This document shows, piece by piece, positions 15,315 to 38,856 of a stretch of DNA of 64,000 nucleotides; the first letter of the stretch is position 1; the number at the start of each line of letters is the position of its first letter. This DNA is from Candidatus Bathycorpusculum hydrogenotrophicum. GTDB taxonomy: Archaea; Thermoproteota; Bathyarchaeia; Bathyarchaeales; Bathycorpusculaceae. Where the stretch lies: the NCBI GenBank assembly GCA_009783705.1, contig WRCX01000003.1:1-64000 (forward strand), written 5' to 3'. The position numbers and the translations under genes are program-made. The notes under the pieces are model-generated. The model had not been told where the DNA came from. It was given only the letters and a program-made list of their open reading frames with translations, and did not search any database.

Positions 15315-15415
15315 GACAATCTACTCCTTATGCCATTTGTTATATACATCTTTATTACATTATAATATGTTTTTCATAAAAAGTCAATTTTTTATTCTAA
15401 AGTTTATAAATCCAA

Positions 15416-16873: not shown

Positions 16874-17358
16874 GCCGCTTGGACGAGAAAGATACACGTT
16901 CCTATGTAGAAACGCTCCAATCCCTGCAACGCGACATCAATTCTTTAAAAAAATTTAGTTCCCTTCATCCTTCACTTGAAAAAACCATTGATGGTTTGCG
17001 CAATTCTCAGACCCTTCTCTATGAAGCCCTCGCCCAGCATGGCGTAACTGCCGAAGCAGTGCATAAAGTCATAGTGGAGAACAGCGACAAACAACTCATC
17101 GCCGAAATTATGCGGCTGCAAGCCGCCAAAGACAAAATCAATAAACAACTCGCCGCCCCCGACCTAACCCCACAAAAACGCCAATCCTTAGAGCACTCCT
17201 TTGCGCGAACAAAACAAGACCATGCCGACAAATGGCAAGAAATCATCAACAGCCCACGCCGCGCCGAATTAATCCGCATGACTGAACAAGCCATAACAAA
17301 AAACCTCGAAAAATCACGTACCCGTGACCGCACTCATGACCTCGACCGAAGCCACTAA
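16870..17358 (+). CDS. Coiled-coil mobilization-associated protein
   Basis: Overlaps the T4CP stop; homologous to 36122-36613. Confidence 0.65.
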   Translation: MSRLDEKDTRSYVETLQSLQRDINSLKKFSSLHPSLEKTIDGLRNSQTLLYEALAQHGVTAEAVHKVIVENSDKQLIAEIMRLQAAKDKINKQLAAPDLTPQKRQSLEHSFARTKQDHADKWQEIINSPRRAELIRMTEQAITKNLEKSRTRDRTHDLDRSH

Positions 17359-17417
17359 AAATTATACAAAAATAAACGATTTGGTTATTTGCCACATTTT
17401 ATTTTGAATGTTGTTAC

Positions 17418-17463
17418 ACTTCACAATAAAACTGCCACATGGCAAATATATTTATTGTGAAGT
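17418..17463. terminator. Bidirectional hairpin at the 3' end of the recombinase gene
   Basis: ACTTCACAATAAA/TTTATTGTGAAGT 13-bp arms with inner TGCCA/TGGCA. Confidence 0.6.
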
Positions 17464-19065
17464 CAAAGTGTTTGATAAAAAACCTATAAAGCGATAAAAT
17501 ATTTCTACAGTTTGAGCACGGTTCTTGCCCACGCCGACAGCGTTATAGATTGTGATGTGGTCTATCAGTTCGTGCAGTATAGAAACGGTCAATTCCTTGA
17601 TGTCGGTATATTTATGCACAATATCAAAGAATTTGGCGGCGTTTTCGTTGTCGGCTTTTTGCTTTAGTGTTTTTTGCTGTAGTTCCGCGATTTTGGTTTG
17701 TAGTTCTGATTGTTCGGTTTCATATTCGCGTGAGAGGGTTAAAAACCTCGATTCCGCCAGCATACCCAGCGCGTTTTGCTCAAACAGACGCTTTATAATC
17801 ACGTCCAACTCGGCGGCTCGGCTCTGATGCTTCCCTAAATCGCTTTGGGCTCGGCGAATATCGCGCTTGTTTTCCTCCGCCGACAACTGACGCGCATATT
17901 CCGCGAGATTTCCTTCATGCGTTTTCGCGAACTCTGCCTTTTTACGTATATCGTCCAAAACCAACCGCTCTAATGCGGGCACGGTGATATAATGCGAGGT
18001 ACAGCGTTTGGTGTGCCGCTTGTAGAGATTACAAGAAAAAAACGGCGGCGTGCGGCGTTGCCCGGGATTACAGCGGGACAAATTATTGCCGCAGTCGGCG
18101 CATTTCAACAGCCCCGCGAAGATATTTCCCTCTTGTATCGAGTACGCGCCGCGCTTGGTTTTGATGAACCCCTGCACCTTGTCAAAGGTCTGTTCGTCGA
18201 TTAATGCGGGGTGCATGTCCCGAACCTCGACCCACTCATCTTTTGGGCGGTATACGCAAGTTTTGTTTTTGAAGGATTTCGTCGTCTGCTTTTGTGACAC
18301 CACATGCCCAAGGTATCCGCGGTTTCTCAAAATTTGCTGAACCGTCGTAAGTTCCCATTGGGTGGGATATTGCTGACATTTCAGCATTTGATATTTCCCG
18401 AAGGTTTTCGCCAAATATGCCCGGGGCGTAAGGATTTGCTGTTTTGTCAAATAAACGCGAATACTGTGGGGCGCAATACCCTCAGCCGCCATTTGGAACA
18501 TTTTTTGTACAATCGGCGCGGTTTCGTAGTCCACAATCAGACGGTGCTTGTCGGCGGGGTCTTTCATGTAGCCATAGGGCGCGTGGGGTGCTTTGTATTC
18601 ACCTTTGACCGCCATATTCCGCATGGTTGAACGGATTTTCTTTGAAATGTCCTGCGCGTAATACTCGTTTATTATGGACTTGAAGCCCATAATTTCATTC
18701 TCACCGTGAAAAGTGTCAATGTTGTCATTTACCGCGATTAGCCGCACATTGTTATCGGGAAAGAAAAGTTCCGTATAATAGGCGACCATAGCGTTATTTC
18801 TGCCCAGACGCGATAAGTCTTTGCACAGCACCGCCCCTATTTTCCCCGCTTCAATGTCCGCGACCATGCGCTTAAATGAGGGTCGCTCGAAGGTTACGCC
18901 CGAAATTCCGTCGTCCACATATTCATCATAAATTGTCAGCCCGTGCTCCAGTGCGTAACGCCGCAAAATGTCGCGCTGATTGCCTATACTGTTGGATTCA
19001 GCGTCGCCGCCGTCGTCACGCGAAAGGCGGCAGTAAATCGCCGCGTTGTTTGCCTGCTGTTTCAT
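17452..19065 (-). CDS. Large serine recombinase
   Basis: 'AAIYCRLSRDDGGDAESNSIGNQR', 'LCKDLSRLGRNN', recombinase and zinc-ribbon domains, coiled-coil C-terminus. Confidence 0.93.
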   Translation of the reverse strand: MKQQANNAAIYCRLSRDDGGDAESNSIGNQRDILRRYALEHGLTIYDEYVDDGISGVTFERPSFKRMVADIEAGKIGAVLCKDLSRLGRNNAMVAYYTELFFPDNNVRLIAVNDNIDTFHGENEIMGFKSIINEYYAQDISKKIRSTMRNMAVKGEYKAPHAPYGYMKDPADKHRLIVDYETAPIVQKMFQMAAEGIAPHSIRVYLTKQQILTPRAYLAKTFGKYQMLKCQQYPTQWELTTVQQILRNRGYLGHVVSQKQTTKSFKNKTCVYRPKDEWVEVRDMHPALIDEQTFDKVQGFIKTKRGAYSIQEGNIFAGLLKCADCGNNLSRCNPGQRRTPPFFSCNLYKRHTKRCTSHYITVPALERLVLDDIRKKAEFAKTHEGNLAEYARQLSAEENKRDIRRAQSDLGKHQSRAAELDVIIKRLFEQNALGMLAESRFLTLSREYETEQSELQTKIAELQQKTLKQKADNENAAKFFDIVHKYTDIKELTVSILHELIDHITIYNAVGVGKNRAQTVEIFYRFIGFLSNTLTSQ

Positions 19066-19137
19066 TAGTCAGCCTCCTTTTCAGCGGCAAACAACCAAAT
19101 CATTATATGGTTATTATACCCTAAAAATTTTTGAAAA

Positions 19138-19305
19138 TCAAGCTTCTTTTTCCTCGTTTTTGATTGCTTCGACATCACGTTTGACGGCGGATTTTATGAC
19201 TTCTATCAAGGATTTTTCGCCTATGTATCTTGTAATTACCCGAAATGTCGTATTGCCAATTATTGTTTCGTAGGCTTCACAGTTTGTATCAGCACTATCA
19301 AACAT
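19138..19305 (-). CDS. Small transposon-associated protein (TnpW-like)
   Basis: 55 aa ORF absent from the ORF track: MFDSADTNCEAYETIIGNTTFRVITRYIGEKSLIEVIKSAVKRDVEAIKNEEKEA, upstream of the recombinase. Confidence 0.5.
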   Translation of the reverse strand: MFDSADTNCEAYETIIGNTTFRVITRYIGEKSLIEVIKSAVKRDVEAIKNEEKEA

Positions 19306-19396
19306 AAGACAATCCCCCCTATGTTTAATTTTATCTGTAAGGGATTGTCCAATATTACACGCAGGAAGATAATTTGGAAAATAAGGTTGTGATAAT

Positions 19397-19540
19397 GTGA
19401 GTAACTCTCAACATACGGAATATCAGGGTGTAGCGGTGAATTTTAAAATTGGTATTCTAAAGGAGTTGCATAAACGGCAACTAATAACCCGCGATGAAAT
19501 GGAAAGGGCTATAAAAAGCATAAATGGCAAGAACGATTGA
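19397..19540 (+). CDS. SHOCT-like microprotein
   Basis: 'VNFKIGILKELHKRQLITRDEMERAIKSI'; GTG start; related ORFs at 24991 and 38728. Confidence 0.55.
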   Translation: MSNSQHTEYQGVAVNFKIGILKELHKRQLITRDEMERAIKSINGKND

Positions 19541-19789
19541 GCCTGCGAAGGACGACCCATTCTCAAAGGTTTTATTTTTATTTTGATGTTTTTGTGTTGC
19601 AACCGACCGAACGTTGCGGTTGACGGTTCAAGTTTGCAAGATTATGACTGAAGCTAAAAAAACGACGCATTCAGCGGGTTTATTCCCGTTTGATAGTTTG
19701 GGCGAATAAAAAATAACTATCAACACGACGTTAATACCATATAATATCAAAATGTCGATAACTTTTTTGGAAAATTTTAAACTGAGGTA

Positions 19790-19819
19790 TTGACAGGGGG
19801 GGGGCAACCGTGCTATAAT
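19790..19819 (+). promoter_or_regulatory. Consensus bacterial sigma70-type promoter
   Basis: TTGACA - 18 nt with G9 tract - TATAAT, with extended -10 TGC. Confidence 0.65.
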
Positions 19820-20060
19820 AAATATTAGAAAAGTAGTTTTGCATTAAAACATGCGGATTTTTCGCCCTTGAAGTTAGATTTGTAATTTCTGAATTTTAAA
19901 AAGGGGTTGCTGTTTCAGGAATACAACACGAAGCAATTATATTGTGCGTGAGGTATATATTATGTAATGCTACTTTATAAACGGTTGGGGCGTTAGTGTG
20001 CTTAGTGTTTGAACTCTGCCGGTTTTTGCTCAAAATATACAACTAGAGAGGATTTTTTAT

Positions 20061-20681
20061 GTGAATGATTTAACGCAACGTATTAAAACTAAAGAAATTC
20101 AGGCATTTCAAACCCTTCAGAACGACTACATAAGCATTTTTAATGACATAATGTTTCTTTTTGATGATTCCGCTACTGGTGTCCCAAGCGGTCGTGGAAT
20201 TGTAGGTATGTCGATAAAGAAGATGCCATACAGCAAAACACTAACAGTAAAAGACATAAATGGCAAAATTCTCATCAATGCTTCAAAAAATACTGAACAC
20301 AAAACTAAAAGCATATCTTCACTCAAAATCGGAAATCTTAAAATTTTATTTAAAGAAAACGAGTTAGTCGAAGTGTCAGAATATGCAAAAGGTGTAAAAG
20401 GTGCATTAAGTAACGTGCGGTTCACTCCCAGCGGGAAACTAACAGGCGAACGCTTGGATGCCGTTTCCCTTTCCTCGAAACCATTTGAGCCGATTCGACA
20501 GGGCGACGGTCATCTTGTTCAGCAAAAAGTCGTAGAGGCTATGAAAGAAATTACGCCTCGCATACCTTCGCGTGTGCCTTGGGGAAATATCGAAAATATT
20601 TTTACTATGCCTTCGAGTGAAACATTGCACCCCGTCTATAATTCGCAATTGGAAAAGCTTATGCGTTCATCTATTCGTTGA
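20061..20681 (+). CDS. Hypothetical cargo protein
   Basis: 206 aa ORF downstream of the promoter-like site. Confidence 0.6.
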   Translation: MNDLTQRIKTKEIQAFQTLQNDYISIFNDIMFLFDDSATGVPSGRGIVGMSIKKMPYSKTLTVKDINGKILINASKNTEHKTKSISSLKIGNLKILFKENELVEVSEYAKGVKGALSNVRFTPSGKLTGERLDAVSLSSKPFEPIRQGDGHLVQQKVVEAMKEITPRIPSRVPWGNIENIFTMPSSETLHPVYNSQLEKLMRSSIR

Positions 20682-20756
20682 TTTACGATTTTTGATAAAA
20701 TAATGAGGATTTTATAAAAGGAGCGGGCGGGGTGTGTACGCCCCCATTTTTTTTGA

Positions 20757-22283
20757 CTATTCTATGTCAGAATGTGCTTTAGAAATGGTACAATTTTCAT
20801 TGTATAGCATTCCGAATTTATCTGCTTTTTCAGCCAAACCACAATCTTGTGTTAAGATACCTTTAGCACATACATATTCGTAAAAATATTTATATGCGTT
20901 CTGCGCGTCCTCATATGCGTCTTTAAAAATAAGTGTTGTAATTTCTTCATACAATGGAGGCTGACGTAAGTCCTTTAAAGTTTTAAATTTCTCATTGCTA
21001 TAATTTACATCCTCTTTGTGGTAATCCGCATAACCTAAGTTGATTTTCATAACGTGGTTAATGAGCGGGAAAATTTCTTTTTTGAAGTAAACTAAAGCTG
21101 AAAAATAGTCATAAACTGCTATTAAACAGCTTTTTACAACTTCCGCGTCATTGCAGTGATATTTAGCGGATGTAAGCCTCATAGAATACGACATATCGTA
21201 ACAAACCTTTTTCAGCTTTTCAAGGCATTCTTGACCCTTTTCAAAATAAACTGTTTTTTTCTCTAATTTTGCATAATCAAGCCCCTCTACCAAACCATGT
21301 TTTAACAAAACAAGAGCTGTTATAAATTGGGGGCAACATGAATTGTTTTCTCTTTTAAATGCCATTGTAGCTGGTCTTGAATTACAAATCAACCTAACAG
21401 GCTTTGAATATTCATAACGATGCAAATATTTTGAGTAGTCATAATACAAATCAAGATACATAGTTTCTCCTGTTAAATAAGAAACTATTGCAAGGTTGAA
21501 TGCACGCAATTCATTATCAACATTTTTTCTTTGTTGGCTATGTTCATTTAATCTTTCTAAGGCTTCAATATATTGAGATACTTTGTAGGGGATGCGTTTA
21601 TTTTTGCCTGTAAATGTTTCTATAGGTTCAATGACTTTATTTTTGAGCAGTTTATTAACGGCTTGAAGATATTGCCTTAATTCATCATTCGGTTCATTCG
21701 CTAGAGCTTTATCGACAATACCCTGCAAACCGCCTGCTTTATGATAGCAATCTGTTAATTTATCAAAATCAATTTCGACTACTTCTTTATTTACGCATTT
21801 GTAGAAGGGATTAATTTGCTCATCATCAATGAATGCCTTAAAATCAGGGTGTTTTTTAAATATATGGTCAACCAATGCCCATGTAGTCGTTGGCAATATG
21901 CAGTATTTATGAGTTACACTTTTATGATTAAGTATGTAACGAACGCAACCGACATTGTCCCTATCTTCTAAACGGGTTTTACTAGGGTTTAAGAAAACGT
22001 CAAGGACTGAAAAAGGAACGCTGAATAGATGGGGAAAGTTGTCGTCATTGTTTTTTTCTTTGCAGTGTTCTTTTGCTAATGCGAATATTCTCCGATATTT
22101 GGAGAGAAGTGAGTAAAACATACGTTCCCTAGCATCTTCGAGAGCCTCTCTATCCTCTTTTTTAAGATTATTTAATATATCTTTAAATTTGTGTTCAGAA
22201 AAACCAAATTCGGCTATTGTTACGTTATTAGATGCGGATTTATTAACTTGCTCTTGAGGTTGAATGTTAAAAGATTGAGTCAT
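20757..22283 (-). CDS. Hypothetical cargo protein (508 aa)
   Basis: Long ORF, no recognised family. Confidence 0.75.
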   Translation of the reverse strand: MTQSFNIQPQEQVNKSASNNVTIAEFGFSEHKFKDILNNLKKEDREALEDARERMFYSLLSKYRRIFALAKEHCKEKNNDDNFPHLFSVPFSVLDVFLNPSKTRLEDRDNVGCVRYILNHKSVTHKYCILPTTTWALVDHIFKKHPDFKAFIDDEQINPFYKCVNKEVVEIDFDKLTDCYHKAGGLQGIVDKALANEPNDELRQYLQAVNKLLKNKVIEPIETFTGKNKRIPYKVSQYIEALERLNEHSQQRKNVDNELRAFNLAIVSYLTGETMYLDLYYDYSKYLHRYEYSKPVRLICNSRPATMAFKRENNSCCPQFITALVLLKHGLVEGLDYAKLEKKTVYFEKGQECLEKLKKVCYDMSYSMRLTSAKYHCNDAEVVKSCLIAVYDYFSALVYFKKEIFPLINHVMKINLGYADYHKEDVNYSNEKFKTLKDLRQPPLYEEITTLIFKDAYEDAQNAYKYFYEYVCAKGILTQDCGLAEKADKFGMLYNENCTISKAHSDIE

Positions 22284-22289
22284 TGTGTA

Positions 22290-22769
22290 TCACGCAACTT
22301 TAAATATGTTACCTTCCGTTTTAAACGGTCTGCCTTCAACCAGCCTTAAAACAGAAAAAAACGCAAACCAAAAAAGCAGTATCTGTCTCGTTTGAATAGG
22401 TGATATTCCATCTCTGTCCATACGATCAGCAGCCCTTTTAGCCGCATAATTAAAGTTATCTGCAAAATTCGTTTCAGCTAACCAACGCTTATTAGCTTCG
22501 TCAACTTCCCTGCAGTCACTAAATACATCTTTTTCAAGCCACTGTTTTGTTGCAGAAATAGCTTTTGACAAATCTAATGGCGCAAGAGGGGGCACTCCGT
22601 CAAGTTGATTAGTGAGTTTCTTGCGTAAAGCTTCTTGGTATATTGGGTCAATTATTATATCCTTTAATGTGCTTGCATTTAAATAATACTCCGGACTGCC
22701 CGGAATATTACCCATACAAGTTGTTATGTCCATTCTTGCACAATATTGTTTATCACACATTTTACACAT
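22290..22769 (-). CDS. Hypothetical Cys-containing cargo protein, paralog of 23402-23836
   Basis: Shared pattern 'YQExLxxxL...TKxWL...FWxAxxSxLxxxxGRF'. Confidence 0.65.
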   Translation of the reverse strand: MCKMCDKQYCARMDITTCMGNIPGSPEYYLNASTLKDIIIDPIYQEALRKKLTNQLDGVPPLAPLDLSKAISATKQWLEKDVFSDCREVDEANKRWLAETNFADNFNYAAKRAADRMDRDGISPIQTRQILLFWFAFFSVLRLVEGRPFKTEGNIFKVA

Positions 22770-22770
22770 T

Positions 22771-23226
22771 TTATAGCATCCTCGACGTTAGTCTATATAT
22801 GCAAAGAATAATTACGTTGGCAAGTAACAACGCCAGCACCAACGGCACGAGGTATAGGGCGAAAGTCAACCATGGGGTGATCTCTGTAAAAATATAATAT
22901 ACTGAAACTAGTCCAGATATCACACTCATTGCAAGAATTAATATTGATGCCCCAATTATTATTGCATAACCTTTTTTGATAGCCCGAATGTCATAACGGA
23001 TGGCTTCATGATATCCTTTCTCAGCTTTTCCCAACACAAATATTGTCACTCCCGACAAGGGAAAAGTCATAGTTGCAAATATTTTTGATATGCCATCAGT
23101 ATCCTTTATTAAATTGACATCGCCAAAGCCGCTCCGCCATGTAAGAAACAGAACTACGATAGTAGTAATCGCCATTAGGAATATGGGTAAATTTTTCTTC
23201 CCAAATGCGACTATATATCTCATCAT
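22771..23226 (-). CDS. 4-TM membrane protein
   Basis: Four hydrophobic segments in 151 aa. Confidence 0.65.
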   Translation of the reverse strand: MMRYIVAFGKKNLPIFLMAITTIVVLFLTWRSGFGDVNLIKDTDGISKIFATMTFPLSGVTIFVLGKAEKGYHEAIRYDIRAIKKGYAIIIGASILILAMSVISGLVSVYYIFTEITPWLTFALYLVPLVLALLLANVIILCIYRLTSRML

Positions 23227-23401
23227 GCATAGTTTGCGCTCGCTCGCTAATTTTGAAGTAAGTGTATATTTTTGGACATATATATTTTTCGCCGAATATA
23301 CTGTTGTTTAAGCTTATTTTTCGCAAAATTAGACTTATATTTACAATATTTAGATGTATATAGTGCAGAAAACAAGTGAATGTTATGGTTTTTAAACCAT
23401 A

Positions 23402-23836
23402 TTATAATAGCATTCTAAATCGTCCTTGCGTGATAGCAAATAATAACGAATAGTGAGCAAGCCAAAAAAACACCCATATCCTAACCTCAATTTTCGACAT
23501 CCCCAACTCAATATCATCACTACGACATATTATTTTTATTCCGCGATTTATCTTATCCACCCAGTTATTCCAATTTTCTTGACAGCTATGAGAATCATAA
23601 TGCGCACAAATCATGTCAAGCCAATTTTTTGTTATTAACAACGCCTCCGACCAACATAAAGCGTCCTCAGAAATACATTGAGAAGAAAGGCGACGCGATA
23701 GTTGCTCTTGATAATCCGCCGATTTTACTATTTCCATTAGTCCCGTTTTTCTTAACAAATTTTCTGGTGGATAATTTGAAATATAGCGGAATATATCATT
23801 TACAGTCATTGGAACACCTGAATAAACAACAAACAT
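23402..23836 (-). CDS. Hypothetical cargo protein, paralog of 22290-22769
   Basis: See 22290-22769. Confidence 0.55.
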   Translation of the reverse strand: MFVVYSGVPMTVNDIFRYISNYPPENLLRKTGLMEIVKSADYQEQLSRRLSSQCISEDALCWSEALLITKNWLDMICAHYDSHSCQENWNNWVDKINRGIKIICRSDDIELGMSKIEVRIWVFFWLAHYSLLFAITQGRFRMLL

Positions 23837-24108
23837 CAGCCATATAATATAATATTTTCTAAGAATTAGTAAAAATTATGTTCGTATTACGCCCTCTTTC
23901 TGAGCAATTAAACAAATCCATTCCGAATCAATAACCCTGTTTGAGGCTGTTTCATCTGGACGTTTGGATAATTATAAACCCATTTCTACAAACTGACATC
24001 ATTAATTGTTTTAGGCGAATGATATTGAAATATCCGTTCGCCTAACCCTTCCGCAACCCCATCAAGCAATAATTTTTCATTTGTGTTGTCTGTTTTCCGT
24101 AGACTTTT

Positions 24109-24867
24109 TCATAAGATGCCTTTGTACATGGTCGAATCACACGAGAATCTCACTAAGTTGTTTTTCTGATGTTTATCGAACCACTCTTGCAACCTCGAAC
24201 GCATAATTTCATAACCCTGTTCGCCTTCAACGGGAGAATAATTCGCGGATTCCGCTAATTGTAAAACTGTTTGGAAATCTAAATATCTGTCGTTTGGATA
24301 TGATGTGGTTTCATATTGGGCAAAGAATATACCGAATAAATCTGGTTTCATCTTATTTTCACGTGATATTTCTTTAGTCGCACATTCGCGAATCAAGTCG
24401 TAATACTCTTTCATTGCAGACTCTCTTTTAATCGCGTACCAATTCCAAACTAAACAGACCTTACCATCATTTTTTAAAATTCTGCTAAATTCTTTTTTAC
24501 ATTCGTACTCATCGAACCAGTGGAAAGAATGAGCGGCTACAATTAAATCTGCCATGGCGCTCGGCAACGTGGTTTTCTCTGCTGTTGCCGTAATAATATG
24601 CAAATTTGGATTATGACCGTACGCGAGCGTCAATTGTTCGCGCATCGCTTTATTAGGCTCAACGGCATAAACAATACTCCCTTGTTCAAGCAATAGACTT
24701 GTAAATTTTCCCGTTCCTGCGCCGACATCAATAACGACAGGAGGCATATTAGTATTATTTATATTTTTAAACACCTCTCTCACTATCTCTTTGGGATAAG
24801 AGGGGCGTGCTCGATGATAAACGCCAGCTTTCTTACTAAAACGTTCTTTACCATCTGAAATTAACAT
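24109..24867 (-). CDS. Class I SAM-dependent methyltransferase
   Basis: 'VVIDVGAGTGKFTSLL' motif I, 'DLIVAAHSFHWFD'. Confidence 0.88.
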   Translation of the reverse strand: MLISDGKERFSKKAGVYHRARPSYPKEIVREVFKNINNTNMPPVVIDVGAGTGKFTSLLLEQGSIVYAVEPNKAMREQLTLAYGHNPNLHIITATAEKTTLPSAMADLIVAAHSFHWFDEYECKKEFSRILKNDGKVCLVWNWYAIKRESAMKEYYDLIRECATKEISRENKMKPDLFGIFFAQYETTSYPNDRYLDFQTVLQLAESANYSPVEGEQGYEIMRSRLQEWFDKHQKNNLVRFSCDSTMYKGIL

Positions 24868-24990
24868 ATAAATTTCCTTGCTGTGTGTGTTTAGTTCACG
24901 GTAGGAAGGTGCTTCTTTTATATTTAAGTTTATTACGAATTTTTAAAATATATTTATTTTCTGTTCTCTCAAATTTTACAAACGATTATT

Positions 24991-25113
24991 ATGTACGACA
25001 CTTCTAATATCATGCAAAATTTCAAAGTTGGTGTGTTGAAGGAGTTGTATAAACGTAATCTCATAACGCGCGAAAAGCTTGAGCAAGCTATAAAAATCTG
25101 TAAAAGGCAATAA
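24991..25113 (+). CDS. SHOCT-like microprotein upstream of the recombinase
   Basis: MYDTSNIMQNFKVGVLKELYKRNLITREKLEQAIKICKRQ. Confidence 0.6.
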   Translation: MYDTSNIMQNFKVGVLKELYKRNLITREKLEQAIKICKRQ

Positions 25114-25135
25114 TATCACGTGGAAGTGTGTTCTT

Positions 25136-26710
25136 ATGAAGCGCGTGGCAGCTTATTGTCGGGTTAGCACCGAAGCGGACGACCAGTTAAATTCGTTAGA
25201 GAATCAAAAAAGGTATTTTGAAAAATATATCGAAAATAATATTGAGTGGGAATTTTGCGGACTTTATATTGATGAGGGTTTGAGCGGCACAAGTGTTGAT
25301 AAGCGCGAAGGGTTTAAGCGGATGGTCGCTGACGCTGAAAATAAAAAATTTGATTTACTGTTGACAAAGGAGATTTCACGCTTTGCGCGGAATACTTTAG
25401 ACAGCATATTTTATACGCGAAAGTTGAAGGGGTTAGGCGTTGGGGTGGTGTTTATGAATGATAACATAAACACGCTGGATTCAGACGCAGAATTAAGATT
25501 AACAATTATGTCGAGCATAGCCCAAGAGGAGAGCCGCAAGACAAGCGAGCGGGTGAAATGGGGACAAAAACGGCTCATGGAAAGAGGCGTTGCCTTCGGC
25601 GCAAAAGCATTAGGATACAACCTAAAACACGGCAAATTGACAATTAACGAAGATGAAGCAAAAATTATAAGATTAATTTTCGACCTGTATTTGTCGGGCA
25701 TGGGAGCACACAACATAAGCAAAGAGCTTGATAATCGAGGAATCCCCACGCCAAACGGCGGCACACGCTGGAACGCTGTTCGCGTATTGCGAATCCTCAA
25801 AAATGAGAAATATATCGGCGTGCTGAAACAGAAAAAGAAAATAACGGTAGATTATCTAAGCCACAAGCGCAAAACCAACGAGGGCGAGGAAAATTTCATT
25901 ATCGTGGAGAACAGCCACGCGCCCATTATCGAGAAAGAAATATTTGACAGGGTGCAAAATGAGATTGTGCGCCGAAAAAATGTAACCGTTGAAAAAAGCC
26001 GATACTCCAACCGTCATGTGTGGAGCGGTAAGGTCAAATGCGCTTATTGTAATTCGTCTTTTAAGCGGAAAATTAACAACAGTACGTCGAATAGTCCGCA
26101 GATTATTTGGCAATGCTCCGAGGCTGAAAAGTACGGCAAAGAAAAAATCAACGCGCAGGGCAAAAAGGTTGGCTGTAACTGTAAAATCGTTCCTGAGTGG
26201 GTCTTGCGGGAAAATTTCTTAGCCGTCCTAAATGTGGTTATTGAAAACAAAGATTTTGTTGTGCGGGAACTAAAAGAGCGTGTGCGCCGCGCTATTGCTG
26301 AATGTCCCAACAAAGGGGACGAGTTAAAGGAAGTTCTGATGGGGCTTGATAAATTATCTGATAGAAAATCAAGGTTAATCGAGATGCACCTTGACAGGCT
26401 GATTAGCCTTACAGAATATAAAAAAGCCTATGCACAGTACGAAAAACAGCAACAAACCCTGCAAAAGCGTCTGTCGGTCTTGGATGGTGAAAATAAACTT
26501 GCGGCAGATTTGGAACAGAAACTTGACAGCGTAGACCAAGCAATCGAAAATTTGGCGCGGCTTATAGAATTCGGAGATTCAATATGCTCCGAGGTGCTAC
26601 ACAAGGTTGTTGTTGAGGGCAGGGATAAAATGTCATTTTACCTAACGACAGGCGAAAACAAAAACCCCGCCTTTTTTAAAATACCCCTTTTGATACGCCA
26701 AGACTTGTGA
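25136..26710 (+). CDS. Large serine recombinase, probable E1 integrase
   Basis: 'RVAAYCRVSTEADDQLNSLENQ', 'LTKEISRFARNT'; the ORF crosses the right att core at 26699-26700. Confidence 0.93.
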   Translation: MKRVAAYCRVSTEADDQLNSLENQKRYFEKYIENNIEWEFCGLYIDEGLSGTSVDKREGFKRMVADAENKKFDLLLTKEISRFARNTLDSIFYTRKLKGLGVGVVFMNDNINTLDSDAELRLTIMSSIAQEESRKTSERVKWGQKRLMERGVAFGAKALGYNLKHGKLTINEDEAKIIRLIFDLYLSGMGAHNISKELDNRGIPTPNGGTRWNAVRVLRILKNEKYIGVLKQKKKITVDYLSHKRKTNEGEENFIIVENSHAPIIEKEIFDRVQNEIVRRKNVTVEKSRYSNRHVWSGKVKCAYCNSSFKRKINNSTSNSPQIIWQCSEAEKYGKEKINAQGKKVGCNCKIVPEWVLRENFLAVLNVVIENKDFVVRELKERVRRAIAECPNKGDELKEVLMGLDKLSDRKSRLIEMHLDRLISLTEYKKAYAQYEKQQQTLQKRLSVLDGENKLAADLEQKLDSVDQAIENLARLIEFGDSICSEVLHKVVVEGRDKMSFYLTTGENKNPAFFKIPLLIRQDL

Positions 26711-26817
26711 GTGAGATATCTTTGTTAGCAGATATATTGAGCGCAGAGTCGGTTAATGTGATATCCTTATCCAGTGCGATAACTGTAGAGCCTACAGCAT
26801 TATTTACTGCATTACCA
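26699..26817 (-). pseudogene. Middle fragment (B) of the interrupted surface-protein gene
   Basis: Translates GNAVNNAVGSTVIALDKDITLTDSALNISANKDISLTSLG, matching the N-terminal region of 45439-46869 (NAVDNALEPTIITLDKDIKL..ISANKNITLTS). Confidence 0.88.
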
Positions 26818-26961
26818 AAAGAGGTATAACGGCAGATTTTGCTTGCCGACGAAGTCGGAAATGACGCCGACATGCGGCATTTCAAAATCAACCACTAAAA
26901 AGCGGTTTACCTCGGCTTATTATTCCCGACTTTATCAAAACATAACAATAGAAGTCTATAT

Positions 26962-26995
26962 CGGAGTGTAGCAAGTTGGCACTCCGACTTTTTAT
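26962..26995 (+). terminator. E2 left-end hairpin plus T-tract
   Basis: CGGAGTG...CACTCCG ACTTTTT; compensatory change relative to E1. Confidence 0.7.
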
Positions 26996-27394
26996 AAAAA
27001 TTCTTGTTCCTACTGTGAGTGTTTCCAATTCTTGGCAGGGGTGTTTTTTTGTTTGTGTTTCTAAGTTTGGGCGGGGTGCGTTCGCGTCGCCAAGCGGTCG
27101 CTGTCGCGCCGATCAGCGCCGCTCACGCATTATCCTAACACCGAAGAACACGCGGCAGGGGCGTTTTTTTGTCCTCACTCAAAAATCGCAAAAAGCGGGA
27201 CAAGTGGTTTTTGCGTCCGAAGCTCCGACTAATGCCGCCCATGTGGTGGGAATTGTCCGCGCCCTACGGGGTCTTTCACGGAGCTTCTCCCTACAGACAG
27301 CGGTGAGGGCTAAAGTCCCGACTAATGCCGCTCCCATGGCTGGATTTGTTCGCTTCCCGTGGGGCTTTTTGTGCTTTTGGCTAAAAAGTGCGGG

Positions 27395-27427
27395 AAGGGC
27401 GCACTTACACAATCGCACCGCGATTGT
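27395..27427 (-). other. oriT-like region upstream of mobA1 (E2)
   Basis: Minus strand: ACAATCGC-GGT-GCGATTGT hairpin then GTAAGTGCGCCCTTC, matching the IncQ/pSK41-type nic core TAAGTGCGCCCT. Confidence 0.75.
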
Positions 27428-27454
27428 CCAACATTCATGCGGGTTTGAGGGTTC

Positions 27455-29008
27455 TTGCGAGCTGAAACGTCGGAGGTATTTTTAACGCCGATTTATCATC
27501 TCAGCGTTAAAATTATCGGCAGGGGGTCGGGGCGGTCTGCTGTGGGTGCGGCGGCGTACAGAGCTGGGGAGAAGCTGAAATCGGTGGATGCGGCGGCGTA
27601 TCGGGCGGGCGTAGAGTTAGAGGGCGACGAAATAACCCACGACTACACAAGAAAACAAGGCGTTGTGCACAAGGAAATAATTTTGCCCGATAACGCGCCC
27701 AAAAATTACGAAGACCGCGAGACCCTGTGGCGAGCGGTAGAAGCAAAGGAAAAGCGGCGCGACGCAAGGCTGGCGCGGGAAATCGAAGTCGCGCTACAAA
27801 TAGAGTTTGACTTAGAAGAACAAAAAGCCCTACTCTGTGAATACATAAAAGAAAATTTTGTTGACAAGGGTATGATTGCCGACTTTGCCGTGCATAATAA
27901 AGGCGACGGTAATCCCCACGCGCATATTATGTTGACTACCCGCCATGTTTCGCCCGACGGTTTTGGGGGTAAAAACCGCGACTGGGACGAAGACATTGAG
28001 CTTTTAAAATGGCGCGAAAACTGGGCGAAAATTAATAATCAAAAGTTTGAGGAAAAAGGGCTAGATTTGCGAATAGACCATCGCTCATACAAGGAACAGG
28101 GCATTGACCGCGAACCGACCATACATTTAGGACACAAGGCAACGGCGTTAGAGAAAAAAGGCATACACACCGAGCGCGGCGACAGAAACCGCGAAATCCA
28201 AAAACGCAACGCCGAACGCGCCAAACAAGCGGAGCGCAAACAGGAAGCCACTGAAATTCCCGACATTGAACCTACCACCGAAAAAACCGCAAAACACCTA
28301 AACAAATTAAGAGATGACTACATCACGCTTGAAAAAGACTTATCCGAGCTAATAACAACGCGCAATGAAATTAGAGAAGAAATCCCCCGCTTAAACTTCC
28401 GTGCCGAAAATATGGACGAACACGCCAAAAACATTGAAGCCCTACAGAGCAGAATCGCAGAACTACAGCAAACCCGCCAAAACCTAAACTTTTTACAACG
28501 GACAAAAAAACAGGAAACCAACCAAGCACTCAAACACGCCGAACAGGAAACACGCCGCGCCGAGATATTTTTCAAAAACCGCTTCGGCATAGACCCAAAC
28601 CAAACCCCAGACGAAATCAAACGCCTACAAAAAATAGTCCGCGAAAAACAAACCGACCTAAACACTAAAAACGCCGCCATACTAAACATCATGGACACCC
28701 AAGACAAAATCCTCTTAGACTACCACACCCAAAAACTCATCGTCCAAACCCGCCCCAACAGCCAACAAATAGACAAACTTTTGGAACACATGAACACCCC
28801 GCCCGAATCCGTCCGTGACCGCCTCCTCCAAGAACGAATCGACCGCCGCCTAAACATCATCCCCGACCAAGATTTCCAGCGCGTTATCGAAAAATTACCC
28901 CAATACCAAACACAAACCCTAATCGAACAACGTAAACGCGCCGAAACGGTCAAGCGTGAACAAGAAAAATCGAGGGAGCGCATCCGAATAATCGAACGAA
29001 GCCGTTAG
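27455..29008 (+). CDS. mobA: MobA/MobL-family relaxase
   Basis: 'IYHLSVKIIGRGSGRSAVGAAAYRAGE', 'NPHAHIMLTTR'; clearly homologous to 10871-12556. Confidence 0.9.
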   Translation: MRAETSEVFLTPIYHLSVKIIGRGSGRSAVGAAAYRAGEKLKSVDAAAYRAGVELEGDEITHDYTRKQGVVHKEIILPDNAPKNYEDRETLWRAVEAKEKRRDARLAREIEVALQIEFDLEEQKALLCEYIKENFVDKGMIADFAVHNKGDGNPHAHIMLTTRHVSPDGFGGKNRDWDEDIELLKWRENWAKINNQKFEEKGLDLRIDHRSYKEQGIDREPTIHLGHKATALEKKGIHTERGDRNREIQKRNAERAKQAERKQEATEIPDIEPTTEKTAKHLNKLRDDYITLEKDLSELITTRNEIREEIPRLNFRAENMDEHAKNIEALQSRIAELQQTRQNLNFLQRTKKQETNQALKHAEQETRRAEIFFKNRFGIDPNQTPDEIKRLQKIVREKQTDLNTKNAAILNIMDTQDKILLDYHTQKLIVQTRPNSQQIDKLLEHMNTPPESVRDRLLQERIDRRLNIIPDQDFQRVIEKLPQYQTQTLIEQRKRAETVKREQEKSRERIRIIERSR

Positions 29009-29015
29009 AAAGAAA

Positions 29016-29666
29016 TCAACTGCGAAAATTTTTAATTTCCCCTAATTTATATATCTCCATAGAACTCCGTGCCTTAATTGCCTTAATTTCCGCTTCATTA
29101 TCTAATAATTTTTGCATAGATAAGTGCACCGCTTTTTCAAAACGCTGAACAAAACCCGTATCTTTCAAAGATATATTCGGCAGGGTTTCTTCAAAAATAT
29201 TCGCCCAGATTTTATCTGCAACAATTTTACCCTCATCTTTAGTAAATGGTTCTAATGGTTGTCCGTTTATTTGCTTACCTTCAGCAGTATATGTTGTTTT
29301 ACTCCATTCACCTGTTTTATCCAGTTCGGACAACGTAACACTAACATTGCGGTTAATATGAACTCTAAGGGTGTTTGTTTCGAGCGAAGCCGTGCCACCC
29401 CAATCCCTCCAAGACGCCGCCAAAACTTCCTTGCCATCACCTTCCTTTATCCTATGCTTATGCCCGTGCCCCTTTTCTTTAGTGCTTGTTGAATAAATAG
29501 GAATACCGCGACGATTTTCTTTGACTTTAAGGGCGTTTGTTACGCTGTTCGTCACCAAATAACCGGCCTTCTGTACAGCCAAAAATGCCTTAAATGATTC
29601 GATAGGTTTATACATTTTAAAATCACCTTCAACTTTCCTTGCAAATTTACGAATCCAATTACGCAA
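29016..29666 (-). CDS. Hypothetical protein
   Basis: 216 aa ORF. Confidence 0.6.
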   Translation of the reverse strand: MRNWIRKFARKVEGDFKMYKPIESFKAFLAVQKAGYLVTNSVTNALKVKENRRGIPIYSTSTKEKGHGHKHRIKEGDGKEVLAASWRDWGGTASLETNTLRVHINRNVSVTLSELDKTGEWSKTTYTAEGKQINGQPLEPFTKDEGKIVADKIWANIFEETLPNISLKDTGFVQRFEKAVHLSMQKLLDNEAEIKAIKARSSMEIYKLGEIKNFRS

Positions 29667-29818
29667 AATTCATTGTTAAAATTAATCGGCAATCTTTAAA
29701 AAAACACTTTTTTATGAATAAATTATATTTTTACCACATCAACTTCACACCACATATTCTATCACATTATTTTATCTTTTACAACATATTTTTCAAAATA
29801 ATATTGTAAAATATTTTT

Positions 29819-31066
29819 TTGATTTTTAATTTGCCTCTATTTACAATTTCTTTCAATAAAGTTTATAAATTATCGGTTATACATAAAGTAGGCATGATAG
29901 ATTCGCGTATATCGAAAACGATGAATCGCATAGCGAACAATAAACACGCTGAAATAATAAACCTATTATTATCCATATTCATGTTTCCCGTTGGACTTTT
30001 CGTAATTAAAGCGCCTATTGCTGAAAGCATATTATTATCAGCTTCATTTTTTTTGGTTACACGAATTTGGATAATTCATTTTAAAACTTCTGAAATTAAC
30101 GAGGATACATCTTCTGACATCGGAAAGCTTGAAAATGTCAATAAAAATGTAAACGCAATGAACACTACTGTAAACACAATAAACACTAATACAAACACAG
30201 CAAACGATACTGTAAATACAATAAGCGACAATGTAAATATGTTAGCTGTTTCAATAGGTGAACTGAGCGCTATTACTAATTATCGTAAAATAGTTCTAGA
30301 AAATTTAGCAGATACAGCACAAAACCTAAGCAAGTTAAGTGATACAGAAGAACAAACATTTTTTTATCAGTGGTATAGAAAAGAGTTGACAAAGCTAACA
30401 AAAAATCTGCGCAATACTAATGACAGCAAATACGTCAGGTTTATGGTCTATAGATTGCACGACGAGGAACATCAAATCTATAAAGTATTTGAGAGTAAAA
30501 GGAATAGGTTTTTCTATGCTCCTTGTACCTGCAAAAGCATCAAATGGTGGTTAAACCCCTATGGCGAGTGTTTCACAAAGTTTATTCATAAAAATGTCCA
30601 AAGCGGAAATATCGAACAGGTTCGCCGAATTTTTATTTATGAAAATGAAAAGGAGTTCCGTAGCGCACTTGTTAAATTTGCCTTTGTCCTTCATAACAAT
30701 GGCGTATACAAATTTAAAATAATTTCAAAAACAAGATTTGACGCCCGTTTTAATACAAGAAATGGAACCGGCAATCACAAAGCGGATTTTGGCATATTCG
30801 GAGAAGAATATGTGTGGGAAGTTACAAATGGTACTGATGAGGGCGGCCCAATAAGTGGCGATTTTTCTATGGATGAAAATAAGGTTAATTGGTATAAACA
30901 ATTTTTTAACGAGATGTGGGATGAATTGGACGATTACAAATTTAATGACAATAAGATAGGTAATGAAATAGTACTAGCATGTGCAAAATATGCAGAACAG
31001 GGTATCACAAAGTTACCTAAACTTTACGAAGATTACGAAAAAGAAAAAGCCAGAAAAACAGCTTGA
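29819..31066 (+). CDS. Membrane protein with Asn-rich coiled coil and C-terminal PLD/effector-like domain
   Basis: 2 TM, 'NVNKNVNAMNTTVNTINTNTNTANDTVNTISDNV' repeat, C-terminal 'RRIFIYEN...FGIFGEEYVWEVTNG..GGPISGDFSMDENKVNWYKQFFNEMW'. Confidence 0.6.
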   Translation: MIFNLPLFTISFNKVYKLSVIHKVGMIDSRISKTMNRIANNKHAEIINLLLSIFMFPVGLFVIKAPIAESILLSASFFLVTRIWIIHFKTSEINEDTSSDIGKLENVNKNVNAMNTTVNTINTNTNTANDTVNTISDNVNMLAVSIGELSAITNYRKIVLENLADTAQNLSKLSDTEEQTFFYQWYRKELTKLTKNLRNTNDSKYVRFMVYRLHDEEHQIYKVFESKRNRFFYAPCTCKSIKWWLNPYGECFTKFIHKNVQSGNIEQVRRIFIYENEKEFRSALVKFAFVLHNNGVYKFKIISKTRFDARFNTRNGTGNHKADFGIFGEEYVWEVTNGTDEGGPISGDFSMDENKVNWYKQFFNEMWDELDDYKFNDNKIGNEIVLACAKYAEQGITKLPKLYEDYEKEKARKTA

Positions 31067-31147
31067 TTGTTTAAAAATAAGTTCTTGTGCAAATTAAATC
31101 AACATGCGGAAAATAACAGTTGTGTTTAAAGAGAAAAACTAAAAAAT

Positions 31148-31270
31148 CTGGATGGACGCTTACATTATTGCCTCTGCATTGAGCGGTAGCCGCTCTTGGC
31201 AGGGGCATCTGTGTTAGCATCCTTCCAGTTAATGGGAGTGCGCAACTATACAATTTCTTCGAAATTGTAT
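31148..31270 (+). other. Second oriT-like structured region (E2)
   Basis: CTGGATGG...CCTTCCAG long IR, GAGTGCGCAAC, ATACAATTTC-TTC-GAAATTGTAT. Confidence 0.7.
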
Positions 31271-31343
31271 GTATTTTTGAGATAATGGACAAACCATGCC
31301 GAATAAACTAATTTCAAGTACGTTAAGGCAGGGGGCTCGTAAG

Positions 31344-32906
31344 ATGGCGATTTTTTACATGGATGTAAAGATTATCGGCCGCAGTTCGGGACGCTCCGCG
31401 ATCGGCGCGGCGGCATATCGAAGAAGCGCAAAAATGCACTCAATAGCCCATGCCGCATACCAAAGAGGCGAAAAAATAATCGGCATAGGCGATAAAGTAA
31501 CCCACGACTACAGGTCAAAGGGTGGTGTGGTGTATAGTAAAATTATGTTGCCCGATGACGCACCACCCGAATTTATAGACGCGCAAACCCTTTGGAACGC
31601 CGTCGAAGCAAGCGAAACACGCAAAAACGCCCAACTCGCACGCGAAATAATAGTCGCCCTGCCCAAAGAATTCAACCTATCAGAACAAAAAGTGGTTTTA
31701 AGGCAGTACATAAAGGAAAACTTTGTCAGTAAAGGTATGATTGCAGACTTTTCTATCCATGACAAAGGCGACACCAACCCCCACGCCCACATAATGCTCA
31801 CAACCCGCAATATTTCACGAAATGGCTTCGGAAATAAAAACCGCAACTGGAACAAAAAAGAAAACCTATTGGAATGGCGCAAAGCTTGGGCACATATAAA
31901 TAATGATATGTTTAAACGCAAAAGACTAACCCAACGCATAGACCACCGAACACTCAAAGCACAGGGCTTAGACCAAGAACCGACCATCCATTTAGGACAT
32001 GAAGCGGCGGCATTAGAAAAGAAAGGCATCAAAACCGAGCGCGGCGATTATAACCGCGAAATCCAACGACGCAACACCGAGCACACCAAAAAGGAGGCAG
32101 AAATCATGGAATTACAAAAACCAGAAATCGACGACCCAAAGAAACTCACACAAAAACCGGAACACATAAACAAATTAGCGCCCGACCCTGCACCAAACGA
32201 AATAATCACTAAACTAAAAACCGCAAACCGCATGAACCAATTACCCCAACAACAACCGCCCACACCAACAACCCAACCCACAAAAAAACCAAACATCATA
32301 CAAAGAGTAAATCACACAAGGCAACTACGCAAAAAATATACCCGACCCATACATGATTTACATATCCTGACAGCGGAACGCAACATCAATAAAAATGAAA
32401 GCTTGCATTTAAAATTACACTCCGAAGAAATGGACGAACACGCCAAAAACGCCCAAACAGCAAACCAACATATAGCGGTGTTGGAAGCAGATTTTAAAAA
32501 TTTGCATTTTTGGGAAATCAGACGCAAACAAAAGTTAAAAAAGACAATAGAGCAAGCAAAAACCGACAGCCGCATAGCAAACTATCACTTTAAAATAAAA
32601 TACCGCATTACACCCGACCAAGCCCCCTCGGAAATCAAGCGGATACAAAAACAAATCCATATCCTTGAGTTTAAAATTGAAAAGCAAACCCACCAAATAG
32701 CAAGACTTTCACAAGAAGTTGACATTGCCAAACGCGAATATCTCCGACAGGGGCACATGGTCAAAAGACGTTCCAAGCAACCCAGAGTTTTAACAAGCCG
32801 CCGTCAAAGCGTTTCTGAGCTAATAGGCAAACTTCGCGAAAAAACAGGAAAAGCAAGGGGGAAAGCTGTCAAGCGAATTAAGTCAAATAAAAATAAAACA
32901 TTCTAA
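31344..32906 (+). CDS. Second MobA/MobL-family relaxase
   Basis: 'MAIFYMDVKIIGRSSGRSAIGAAAYRRSA', 'NPHAHIMLTTR'; ORF track start 31296. Confidence 0.88.
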   Translation: MAIFYMDVKIIGRSSGRSAIGAAAYRRSAKMHSIAHAAYQRGEKIIGIGDKVTHDYRSKGGVVYSKIMLPDDAPPEFIDAQTLWNAVEASETRKNAQLAREIIVALPKEFNLSEQKVVLRQYIKENFVSKGMIADFSIHDKGDTNPHAHIMLTTRNISRNGFGNKNRNWNKKENLLEWRKAWAHINNDMFKRKRLTQRIDHRTLKAQGLDQEPTIHLGHEAAALEKKGIKTERGDYNREIQRRNTEHTKKEAEIMELQKPEIDDPKKLTQKPEHINKLAPDPAPNEIITKLKTANRMNQLPQQQPPTPTTQPTKKPNIIQRVNHTRQLRKKYTRPIHDLHILTAERNINKNESLHLKLHSEEMDEHAKNAQTANQHIAVLEADFKNLHFWEIRRKQKLKKTIEQAKTDSRIANYHFKIKYRITPDQAPSEIKRIQKQIHILEFKIEKQTHQIARLSQEVDIAKREYLRQGHMVKRRSKQPRVLTSRRQSVSELIGKLREKTGKARGKAVKRIKSNKNKTF

Positions 32907-32918
32907 GGGGCATCTATT

Positions 32919-33554
32919 ATGATGGGCAAAGAACCAAATGTTCTAAGATATAAATTTGATGAAGACAGAGACGAAGCTGAGGGTATATTTTTTTATCGCG
33001 TAGAAAGTATTGATGCACCTGTCAAAAGTATAGCGGAAATGCAGGGCAGGTCGGCGCAGTCGCAAGAAAAACGGCGAAAGCTACGCACTTGGATAGCGCA
33101 TGAGAAACAACTTGATAGGGAAATCGAACAATTAGAGCACGAAATAAGGATTGCGAAGCGTGATTTTAAGGAAAATTTCGGTATTGAACCCGAAGAAGCT
33201 CCTGCTGAAATAGAGTGCATACGAGAACAAATCCGCGAAAACGAACATGCCAACAACATCCGAAACGCCCGAATATCAGAGCTTACAGAGTTACAAGAGG
33301 CTATTGAATTAGAGTATAAAACGCAAATGTTACCTTTTGACCTTCTCCCCGATAAAGAAGAAATGTATAGATTGTTAGAAGATCTGGAGGAATTAACAAA
33401 AGACACTGATGAAAAACAAATATATAACGAAACTAAAAGTCTGATAAACACCATCACGGACGAGACTTTCAAAAAAAGTATTGCAAAGTTGCCAATAGAA
33501 CAAGTTCAGGTTCTAATAAAAGCTTGCAAAACAAAGGGAAAACACAACCTGTAG
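32919..33554 (+). CDS. Coiled-coil protein related to relaxase C-termini
   Basis: Heptad-rich ORF just downstream of the relaxase; 'FGIEPEEAPAEIECIREQI' parallels 'FGIDPNQTPDEIKRLQKIV'. Confidence 0.55.
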   Translation: MMGKEPNVLRYKFDEDRDEAEGIFFYRVESIDAPVKSIAEMQGRSAQSQEKRRKLRTWIAHEKQLDREIEQLEHEIRIAKRDFKENFGIEPEEAPAEIECIREQIRENEHANNIRNARISELTELQEAIELEYKTQMLPFDLLPDKEEMYRLLEDLEELTKDTDEKQIYNETKSLINTITDETFKKSIAKLPIEQVQVLIKACKTKGKHNL

Positions 33555-33590
33555 CGAATCTGATGAACATAAATTGACGTGGGCTATAAT

Positions 33591-33749
33591 GTCGCCGTCC
33601 CCATCGGCGGCGCTTACGCTCAAACCCCTCGCGCCCTCTCGCTCATCGCTCCGAAGTCGCGCTTCGTTACGCGAGGGGATGCTACACTTCGCGCACGCGG
33701 AAGTGCATGAACCTTCGCTCCGCTCGCTTGCACGCCGCCTGACGGCGAC
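33591..33749. repeat. GC-rich structured repeat, copy 2
   Basis: Near-identical to 14369-14528, same position upstream of the T4CP gene. Confidence 0.8.
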
Positions 33750-34061
33750 CAGAAAGAGGGCGCGCAGAGTAAAAGAAAGATTCCGAGGAACGTTATCAAC
33801 ATCTAAAAAGGAATTAGCGAATACTTAGAAAGAATGTAACGGAGAGGAAAGAAGCGTTAAATAAGTCATTAGGTTAATTAGTTTACATAAAATCTCCTGA
33901 AAAGCAATCCCCGAATTTGAGCGCGTCCGATGTGTGTTCTTCCCGCATGTCGGGCGCGTTCTTTGCTAACAAAGTTTTCAAAATCTGTTGACTGCCGCCT
34001 TATTTTGGGATATAATTTAATAAGTTTATAAATCCAAGCGGCGCAAATAATTTGATATATC

Positions 34062-35549
34062 ATGGGTTATACGTGGGATTTCGGCGCAGAAATTACAAGT
34101 TATATTATGAGTTTTTTAATTCAAATTTTTTCGGGTATCGTGTCAGCCTTTTTGCGTCTTTTCGGAAGGCAACCCAAAAATCCCTACAAAGCCGCCGAAC
34201 ACACCACACGCGCAACAAAAAATCCCCCCGCCAACAGACAATTAATGAGCGCGGAGCCTCACGGAATTTTCTTTGGGAAACAATACAATCAATATGTCAT
34301 AAAGCCCGAAGAAACCGACGGACATGTTTTAGTGGTCGGGGGTACGGGCACGGGAAAAAGCTCATGTATCGCCATCCCCACACTCCAAAACTGGAGGGGA
34401 ACAATATTTGCAGTTGATATTAAGGGTGAGTTATACAAAAACACCAAAGACAACCGCAGAAACATTAAACTTTTCGACCCCGAAAACAAAAATAATCGCT
34501 ATGTATATGACCCCTACGTTTTCTTAAATCAAAGCACCAATCCCGCGCAGGAAGCCCGCGCGATCGCCCAAGCCGTCATACCCCTGCCCCACGATGTAAG
34601 AGAGCCGTTTTGGATTGAGAGCCCACAAATAATTTTAACAGGCGCAATTCTGCACTATCACCACGCAAAATGTAGCTTTATCGAAACCCTCCGCAACATT
34701 CAGAGCCAAAACGCCCAAACCCTAATAAAAATCATATCCGAAAGCTCAAACGACAAAGCAAAACTATGCGCCAAATCCTTTGAGGGCATGGACGGCAAGG
34801 TTTTAGCGGGAATTTTCACCGAAATCACACGAGGCATAATCGCCCTTGTGACCGACGACGATATTGTCGCGGCACTATCTTATGAAGAAACTAAGGAAAT
34901 CATATCCCCGATGGACTTAGAAAGCGGCACGGATGTTTATATCAAAATCCCCGAATATTTCTTGACTCAATGGAAAAGCCTTCTAACCCTCATGGTTAAT
35001 CAGTTTATCAGCTTTTTTGAGCGGCGCAAAGAAAGCCCTGACAACCGCCCGATATTGTTTTTATTAGACGAGTTCCCGCGCCTCGGCAAAATCCCTGCCA
35101 TAACCGACGCATTAGCAACCCTGCGCTCCAAAAAAATTACTATCTGCATAATTATTCAAAGTTTAGCCCAGCTCAAAATGATATATTCGCACGATGCGCA
35201 GGAAGTCATCGCCGACACATGCGCTTTTAAAGCCGTATTAGGCGCGACCGATGCAAACACACAAGAATACTTCTCAAAACTCGTCGGCACATACGAGAAA
35301 ATCCGAAGCTCTCACTCACAAAACTATGACCCCTACATAGGCGCACCCACAGGGCATAGCACCCAAACCGCGCAGGACTACGAAAAACGCATCATAAAAC
35401 CCGAAGAATTTGCCGCCCTGCAAGACCAACTCATTCTGCTATACCCTCTGCCCAAAAACTTTTGCAGAGTGCGAAAATTGCCATATTATATAAACAAGGG
35501 CCAATCTAATTCTACGCCAAACGCTTCGGGAGATATGCCGCTTGAATAA
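34062..35549 (+). CDS. VirD4/TraG-type coupling protein (T4CP)
   Basis: 'VVGGTGTGKSSCIAIPTL', 'LFLLDEFPRLGKIPAI'. Confidence 0.93.
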   Translation: MGYTWDFGAEITSYIMSFLIQIFSGIVSAFLRLFGRQPKNPYKAAEHTTRATKNPPANRQLMSAEPHGIFFGKQYNQYVIKPEETDGHVLVVGGTGTGKSSCIAIPTLQNWRGTIFAVDIKGELYKNTKDNRRNIKLFDPENKNNRYVYDPYVFLNQSTNPAQEARAIAQAVIPLPHDVREPFWIESPQIILTGAILHYHHAKCSFIETLRNIQSQNAQTLIKIISESSNDKAKLCAKSFEGMDGKVLAGIFTEITRGIIALVTDDDIVAALSYEETKEIISPMDLESGTDVYIKIPEYFLTQWKSLLTLMVNQFISFFERRKESPDNRPILFLLDEFPRLGKIPAITDALATLRSKKITICIIIQSLAQLKMIYSHDAQEVIADTCAFKAVLGATDANTQEYFSKLVGTYEKIRSSHSQNYDPYIGAPTGHSTQTAQDYEKRIIKPEEFAALQDQLILLYPLPKNFCRVRKLPYYINKGQSNSTPNASGDMPLE

Positions 35550-36117: not shown

Positions 36118-36121
36118 GGGC

Positions 36122-36613: not shown

Positions 36614-36870
36614 AATTAACACACATGAACTATGTGGGAAACTGCCAAGTTACCAACAGCCCACAAGCGGAACTATTTATAACTTCAAGCACAGCAGTTA
36701 GGCACAAAACCCAAAGACAGCTAATAAAAAACCACATACATAAAACAACGTAATTTTTGGGGTAAGCAGATAATCATTCAAATCACCACTTCATTTTTTA
36801 GTTTGCCCCCATTTCATGCGGATTTTTTGGACAATCGTAAACGCCTATACATACTTCCATATAATGGAAA

Positions 36871-38844: not shown

Positions 38845-38856
38845 AAAAATTTGTCT

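Follow-up and report, generated by a model that had tools for sequence, protein, structure and literature searches.

Two mobile elements, E1 and E2, found in the window (the whole stretch of 64,000 nucleotides analysed, from Candidatus Bathycorpusculum hydrogenotrophicum) very probably carry their attachment site, attP, within the 3′ part of their own large serine integrase gene, with selection acting on the tail encoded beyond it. The preliminary description had proposed that the recombinase has different C-termini in the circular and integrated states. The sequence evidence strongly supports this reading, the long form being a predicted product: the tail frame is conserved, its codons show selection, a hairpin followed by a T-run lies past the stop of the tail, and the design is shared by elements that are independent of each other, in different targets and in two host domains (Archaea and Bacteria).

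E1 and E2 lie in the same orientation, separated by 115 bp, inside one beta-helix surface-protein gene encoded on the minus strand. Taking out both elements and joining the flanks at their CA cores (10559-10560 and 26699-26700 in E1, 26816-26817 and 44857-44858 in E2) rebuilt a single 495-aa beta-helix ORF, and the boundaries are therefore exact. The restored protein (MAVKSNVHFCC...ERELRNAVNTGNAVNNAVGSTVIALDKDITLTDSALNISANKDISLTSLGTLVSTSATKFYKLIGTN...) has a hydrophobic segment at the N-terminus, repeats, and a hydrophobic segment at the C-terminus. The elements and the fragments of their target, as deduced from the restored ORF, are the following:

10559..26700, plus strand: element E1, integrative mobilizable type, 16,140 bp plus the 2-bp CA core
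26816..44858, plus strand: element E2, same type, 18,041 bp plus the 2-bp CA core
44859..45049, minus strand: N-terminal fragment of the target gene for the beta-helix surface protein, with the ATG at 45049
26701..26815, minus strand: middle fragment of the target gene, lying between E1 and E2
9381..10558, minus strand: target gene, C-terminal fragment

Each element encodes a MobA/MobL relaxase (Pfam MobA_MobL, E 4e-74 and E 4e-67), a type IV secretion coupling protein (T4SS-DNA_transf) and a serine integrase; with an integrase and a relaxase of their own, both are integrative mobilizable elements. No full mating-pair formation system was found among the subset of their ORFs scanned against Pfam. 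A second, unrelated serine recombinase gene is present within each element (17452-19065, which has DUF4368, and 36871-38445, both on the minus strand), and these genes perhaps represent nested elements. Small related ORFs on the plus strand (FKIGILKELHKRQLITREELEKAIK), located at about 19385-19540 and 24995-25113 in E1 and 38719-38844 in E2, could encode a directionality factor or an accessory factor; one of them sits just 5′ of the E1 integrase gene, and another was seen upstream of int in the related element L091. Near-identical non-coding repeats (98% and 88%), far more similar than the surrounding genes, precede the coupling-protein gene at 14364-14552 in E1 and 33586-33773 in E2. Paralogous beta-helix (Pmp-like) surface-protein genes occupy 9381-10592 and 45439-46869 on the minus strand, and genes of this kind, as well as kelch genes, are repeated targets of these elements. 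The contig is archaeal, since orthologues of the flanking gene at 59602-61392 occur in 25 of the 32 genomes of the genus. A binning artefact was rejected on the basis of this conserved gene and because the bacterial case described below comes from an isolate.

In the E1 integrase a Resolvase catalytic domain precedes the Recombinase and zinc beta-ribbon domains (PF00239, E 7e-34; PF07508, E 2e-26; PF13408, E 3e-7), the organization of a large serine recombinase. The parts of the two genes on either side of the core are:

25136..26698, plus strand: element-encoded part of the E1 large serine integrase, 521 aa, with Resolvase, Recombinase and zinc-ribbon domains
26699..26710, plus strand: E1 attR core CA and host DNA, last codons and stop CAA GAC TTG TGA
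43303..44856, plus strand: element-encoded part of the E2 large serine integrase, with 73% identity to E1
44857..44865, plus strand: E2 attR core CA and host DNA, last codons and stop CAG TAT TGA

The full ORFs, 25136-26710 in E1 and 43303-44865 in E2, end in ...LLIR-QDL-stop and ...LLTT-QY-stop, respectively, and the core falls inside a Gln codon of both genes. It had been noticed that the terminal codons begin at the core CA and should be host DNA; the coordinates and the restored target confirmed this for QDL-stop in E1, and the core at 44857-44858 and the restored target did so for QY-stop in E2. The integrated genes of relatives in the genus end in QDLLM, QDLPM, QDLLR, QDSSTHN, QYLLSDETLHHDNP, KGCSDKQLPQIRVLG and others, each before a stop. 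The number of host codons closing them goes from 0 to about 75, and both stops and codons vary by copy. The integrated integrase keeps all three Pfam domains, and the AlphaFold model of this form of the E1 enzyme (mean pLDDT 77) has long coiled-coil helices and a C-terminal beta-hairpin.

When the two ends of each element were joined as they would be in a circle, the integrase frame remained open into the left end, as QKRILGWRRHSREYSLYLNIEIEIYIGA-stop in E1 and QKRYNGRF...LYQNITIEVYIGV-stop in E2, exactly as had been predicted. The joined frames encode integrases of 549 aa (E1) and 569 aa (E2), with 28 residues past the core in E1 (ending LYLNIEIEIYIGA-stop) and 51 residues in E2 (ending RLYQNITIEVYIGV-stop). 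The features of the left ends are:

10559..10645, plus strand: E1 left end, with attL core CA, att arm and tail frame QKRILGWRRHSREYSLYLNIEIEIYIGA-stop, which belongs to the Int reading frame only in the circle
10633..10668, plus strand: terminator-like hairpin ATCGGAGCG...CGCTCCGAT with a T-run, covering the E1 tail stop codon and found likewise in most relatives
26816..26971, plus strand: E2 left end, with core CA, arm and tail frame QKRYNGRF...RLYQNITIEVYIGV-stop, and an interspersed repeat of about 66 nt in the linker
26959..26993, plus strand: terminator-like hairpin plus T-run after the E2 tail

A hairpin and T-run at the tail stop are as expected where transcription of the circle would terminate. 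The interspersed repeat (CTTGCCGACGAAGTCGGAAATGACGCCGACATGCGGCATTTCAAAATC, about 63-66 nt) was found inside the tail linkers at 26824-26900 of the window and in the relatives L067, L086 and L022. It is read in differing frames among linkers, and the tail frame is unbroken. A stretch similar to this repeat is also present in one integrase.

The conservation of the tail was analyzed in 32 genomes of Candidatus Bathycorpusculum, several of them metagenome-assembled genomes from termite gut. A search with a left-end pattern produced about 40 sites in 14 genomes, compared to 3 for a control in which the pattern was written backwards. One of the 14 genomes was a false match, and the final set from the other 13 comprised 37 distinct left ends, with several related copies in a single genome (e.g., 7 left ends in G031). 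Their linkers vary in sequence and length, partly through the interspersed repeat, and their conserved tail reads ...LYQNTQIEIFIGV-stop preceded by R or K. The pattern used to gather the left ends was partly codon-degenerate, and the unbiased tests are those based on the upstream codons and on the phase. In the phase test, the att arm was located by a phase-blind weight matrix. The phase from arm to stop was identical in 34 of the 37 left ends, which have eleven distinct lengths from 72 to 156 nt; the probability of a shared phase by chance is about 3^-10 when each length class is counted once. The exceptions are L084, whose arm was misplaced by the matrix (the true arm is in phase), L061, which has a single-base frameshift, and L255, a partial end. 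The seven tail codons that precede the search pattern gave a dN/dS of 0.37 in the true frame, compared to 0.90 and 0.77 in the shifted frames. The codons within the pattern appear even more constrained, a value biased by the search itself. A chance open frame was rejected by the phase and codon tests, and the expectation that the extension frames would be conserved at the codon level among relatives was borne out. A stop lying inside the element, which would speak against the proposal, was seen nowhere within the genus. With a fused integrase-tail query, all 33 scored integrase C-termini of the genus matched to about the core only, none being contiguous with a tail. The fused gene was absent from the genus assemblies and viral contigs when searched as a DNA pattern, and from the genus also when searched with the fused protein.

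Independent cases were found in another archaeal element and in a bacterium. The archaeal element, G001:C49, is inserted in a kelch-repeat gene and has an AG core; a different AG considered earlier was rejected because the join was out of frame, and the one adopted restores the kelch gene. Its circular integrase has 550 aa and is in frame (...KMPVSFSKRNRRFIENQCSSKIATLYLNAQIEIYIGV-stop). The gut bacterium Lachnospiraceae bacterium NSJ-143, an isolate, has an integrase 49% identical to that of E1 in an element with a GT core inserted in a collagen-like gene, and joining the flanks restores an ORF of 570 residues. Thus, precise integration at a 2-bp core was found in E1/E2, G001:C49 and NSJ-143, where joins at CA, AG or GT restore the targets. 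The circular NSJ-143 integrase has 549 aa and ends in RYYENLKINVICLI-stop (...SRGTKRYMAEDEEYLLRYYENLKINVICLI-stop), with a hairpin and T-run downstream of the tail. When matched to the archaeal tail profile, its last 14 residues obtained a higher score than every one of 6508 stop-anchored 14-mers taken from comparable DNA, and a higher score than 99.9% of shuffles. The conserved tail is not universal: L061 is frameshifted, and in L101, a bacterial relative inserted in dpaA, the tail is short and unrelated (QSLLRYRKGHTGSWF-stop). In the distant relatives L104 and L107 the integrase ends by its own stop near the equivalent point, although whether the stop of L107 (Anaerocolumna) lies inside the element is borderline. 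The clostridial relatives L099, L100, L101, L106, L107, L170 and L171 are found in sporulation-type genes (dpaA-like, cotJC-like), and their integrase genes finish at attR or cross it; the integrase ORF of L170 and L171 continues in frame into the cotJC-like gene. The same integrase family was also seen in contigs binned as a Bacteroidales genome (Spi319_bin22; L094 and L097), which reflects either transfer or misbinning.

Taken at the sequence level, the tail is a predicted protein segment under selection that can be expressed only from the circle. The integrated tail has no integrase ahead of it, and the host gene interrupted by E1 and E2 runs in the opposite direction, so selection on the tail can act only through Int expressed from a circle. 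The circle gene would encode the long integrase (549-569 aa), ending in R/K-LYQNTQIEIFIGV and followed by the terminator-like hairpin. Integration would then cut int by strand exchange at the 2-bp core, leaving the tail at attL, and host codons would close the integrated gene. Because the tail is selectable only in circle-made Int and circles would come from excision or transfer, we infer that it is the long form that integrates. The short form, with all recognised domains retained, would excise with a helper factor, or else be turned down or quiescent. The tail would probably add a final beta-strand to the C-terminal sheet, altering the synapsis preference or the stability of the enzyme; this notion comes from its alternating residue pattern and the hairpin modelled just before it. 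We consider reasonably likely the explanation as a whole, i.e., that attP lies in int, the tail is removed on integration, and the enzyme is switched by its own integration. A switch in enzyme role between the long and short forms has slightly under an even chance. Somewhat more tentatively still, we propose a self-operated directionality switch in which the long form integrates and the short form excises or is silent, which would have arisen independently of the tyrosine examples and would operate in archaeal and bacterial elements.

The tail could instead be essential for any activity, such that integration inactivates the enzyme and excision depends on a related long integrase acting in trans, a mechanism already suggested for SSV-type integrases. 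This possibility has an archaeal precedent in the suicidal integrases of SSV1, pTN3 and pT26-2, where the integrase gene contains the recombination site and is split on integration; these self-disrupting recombinases were described as exclusively archaeal (PMC8371274), and the design of E1 and E2 is present also in a bacterial isolate. E1 and E2 resemble them in that integration splits the integrase gene at its own site and the hosts are archaea. The conservation of a tail lacking in every integrated copy and the presence of several related copies in genomes such as G031 also agree with inactivation. However, SSV-type enzymes are tyrosine recombinases whose catalytic domain is severed from the N-terminal part, while here a serine recombinase loses only a C-terminal tail of 28-51 residues and no recognised domain. 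Moreover, the diversity of the elements implies that excision is frequent. We regard inactivation as unlikely, although it is the best placed of the alternatives. Rather less likely is that a compact int-attP module travels well, which would place attP in the 3′ end of int, with the replacement of the tail mattering little. The host codons are indeed arbitrary in sequence and length, and L104 and L107 stop near the same point, but purifying selection, the strict phase over variable linkers and the similar tail in a bacterium whose integrase shares 49% identity are difficult to reconcile with indifference to the tail.

A switch in stability, where the hydrophobic C-terminus of the long form leads to degradation and integration stabilises Int, appears improbable. 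The predicted long product does end in hydrophobic residues (IEIFIGV), and there is a precedent in the integration-dependent immunity of mycobacteriophage BPs, where attP lies within a gene and a C-terminal extension is removed on integration (PMC4557955). In BPs it is the repressor gene that is split, with an ssrA-like tag as the extension. Against a degron, the integrase tail is alternating and strand-like and matches no known one, and conservation spans 14 residues, beyond the last three. Finally, the conserved hairpin overlaps the last tail codons and part of their conservation may be at the DNA level, but it is very improbable that the left end is kept just as att arm and terminator with an incidental open frame, given the synonymous pattern outside the hairpin and a phase that is constant over variable linkers, insertions of the 63-66-nt repeat included.

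E1, E2 and their relatives can also be compared with other known systems. The Int protein (IntP) of Myxococcus phage Mx8 is a tyrosine recombinase, while the enzymes described here are large serine recombinases of mobilizable elements with many targets, and their tail is conserved over the genus and into Bacteria. As in E1 and E2, the Mx8 attP lies in the int coding sequence and host DNA provides the new 3′ end of the integrated gene, altering the enzyme without inactivating it (PMC6070905). The Tn4451-like integrative mobilizable elements of Firmicutes combine a serine integrase with mobilization genes, a very short core and target disruption; the portions of that report available to us describe no attP-in-int design (PMC5704250), and the hosts of E1 and E2 are archaea. 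In engineered serine integrase-RDF fusions, according to the accessible part of the source, a C-terminal appendage alters the directionality of the integrase (PMC5737554); in the fusions the appendage is the RDF itself. An attP inside an integrase gene was thus already known for tyrosine recombinases. No example within a serine integrase gene was found in the accessible literature, which covered a minority of the subscription papers, or in the available portions of the SV1, Durrant and Integrase-On-Demand papers; the serine integrase case is new within the literature searched.

Self-splitting integrases, known among tyrosine recombinases and in Archaea, are extended by these elements to serine recombinases and to Bacteria. 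Integrase sequences derived from genomes, where the copy is always the integrated one, would not have the native C-terminus and would carry host codons in its place. The control of direction by serine integrases is a central question in biology and genome engineering, and this family yields natural pairs of long and short integrases that are directly testable. For the element, the tail swap may tell whether it is free or inserted.
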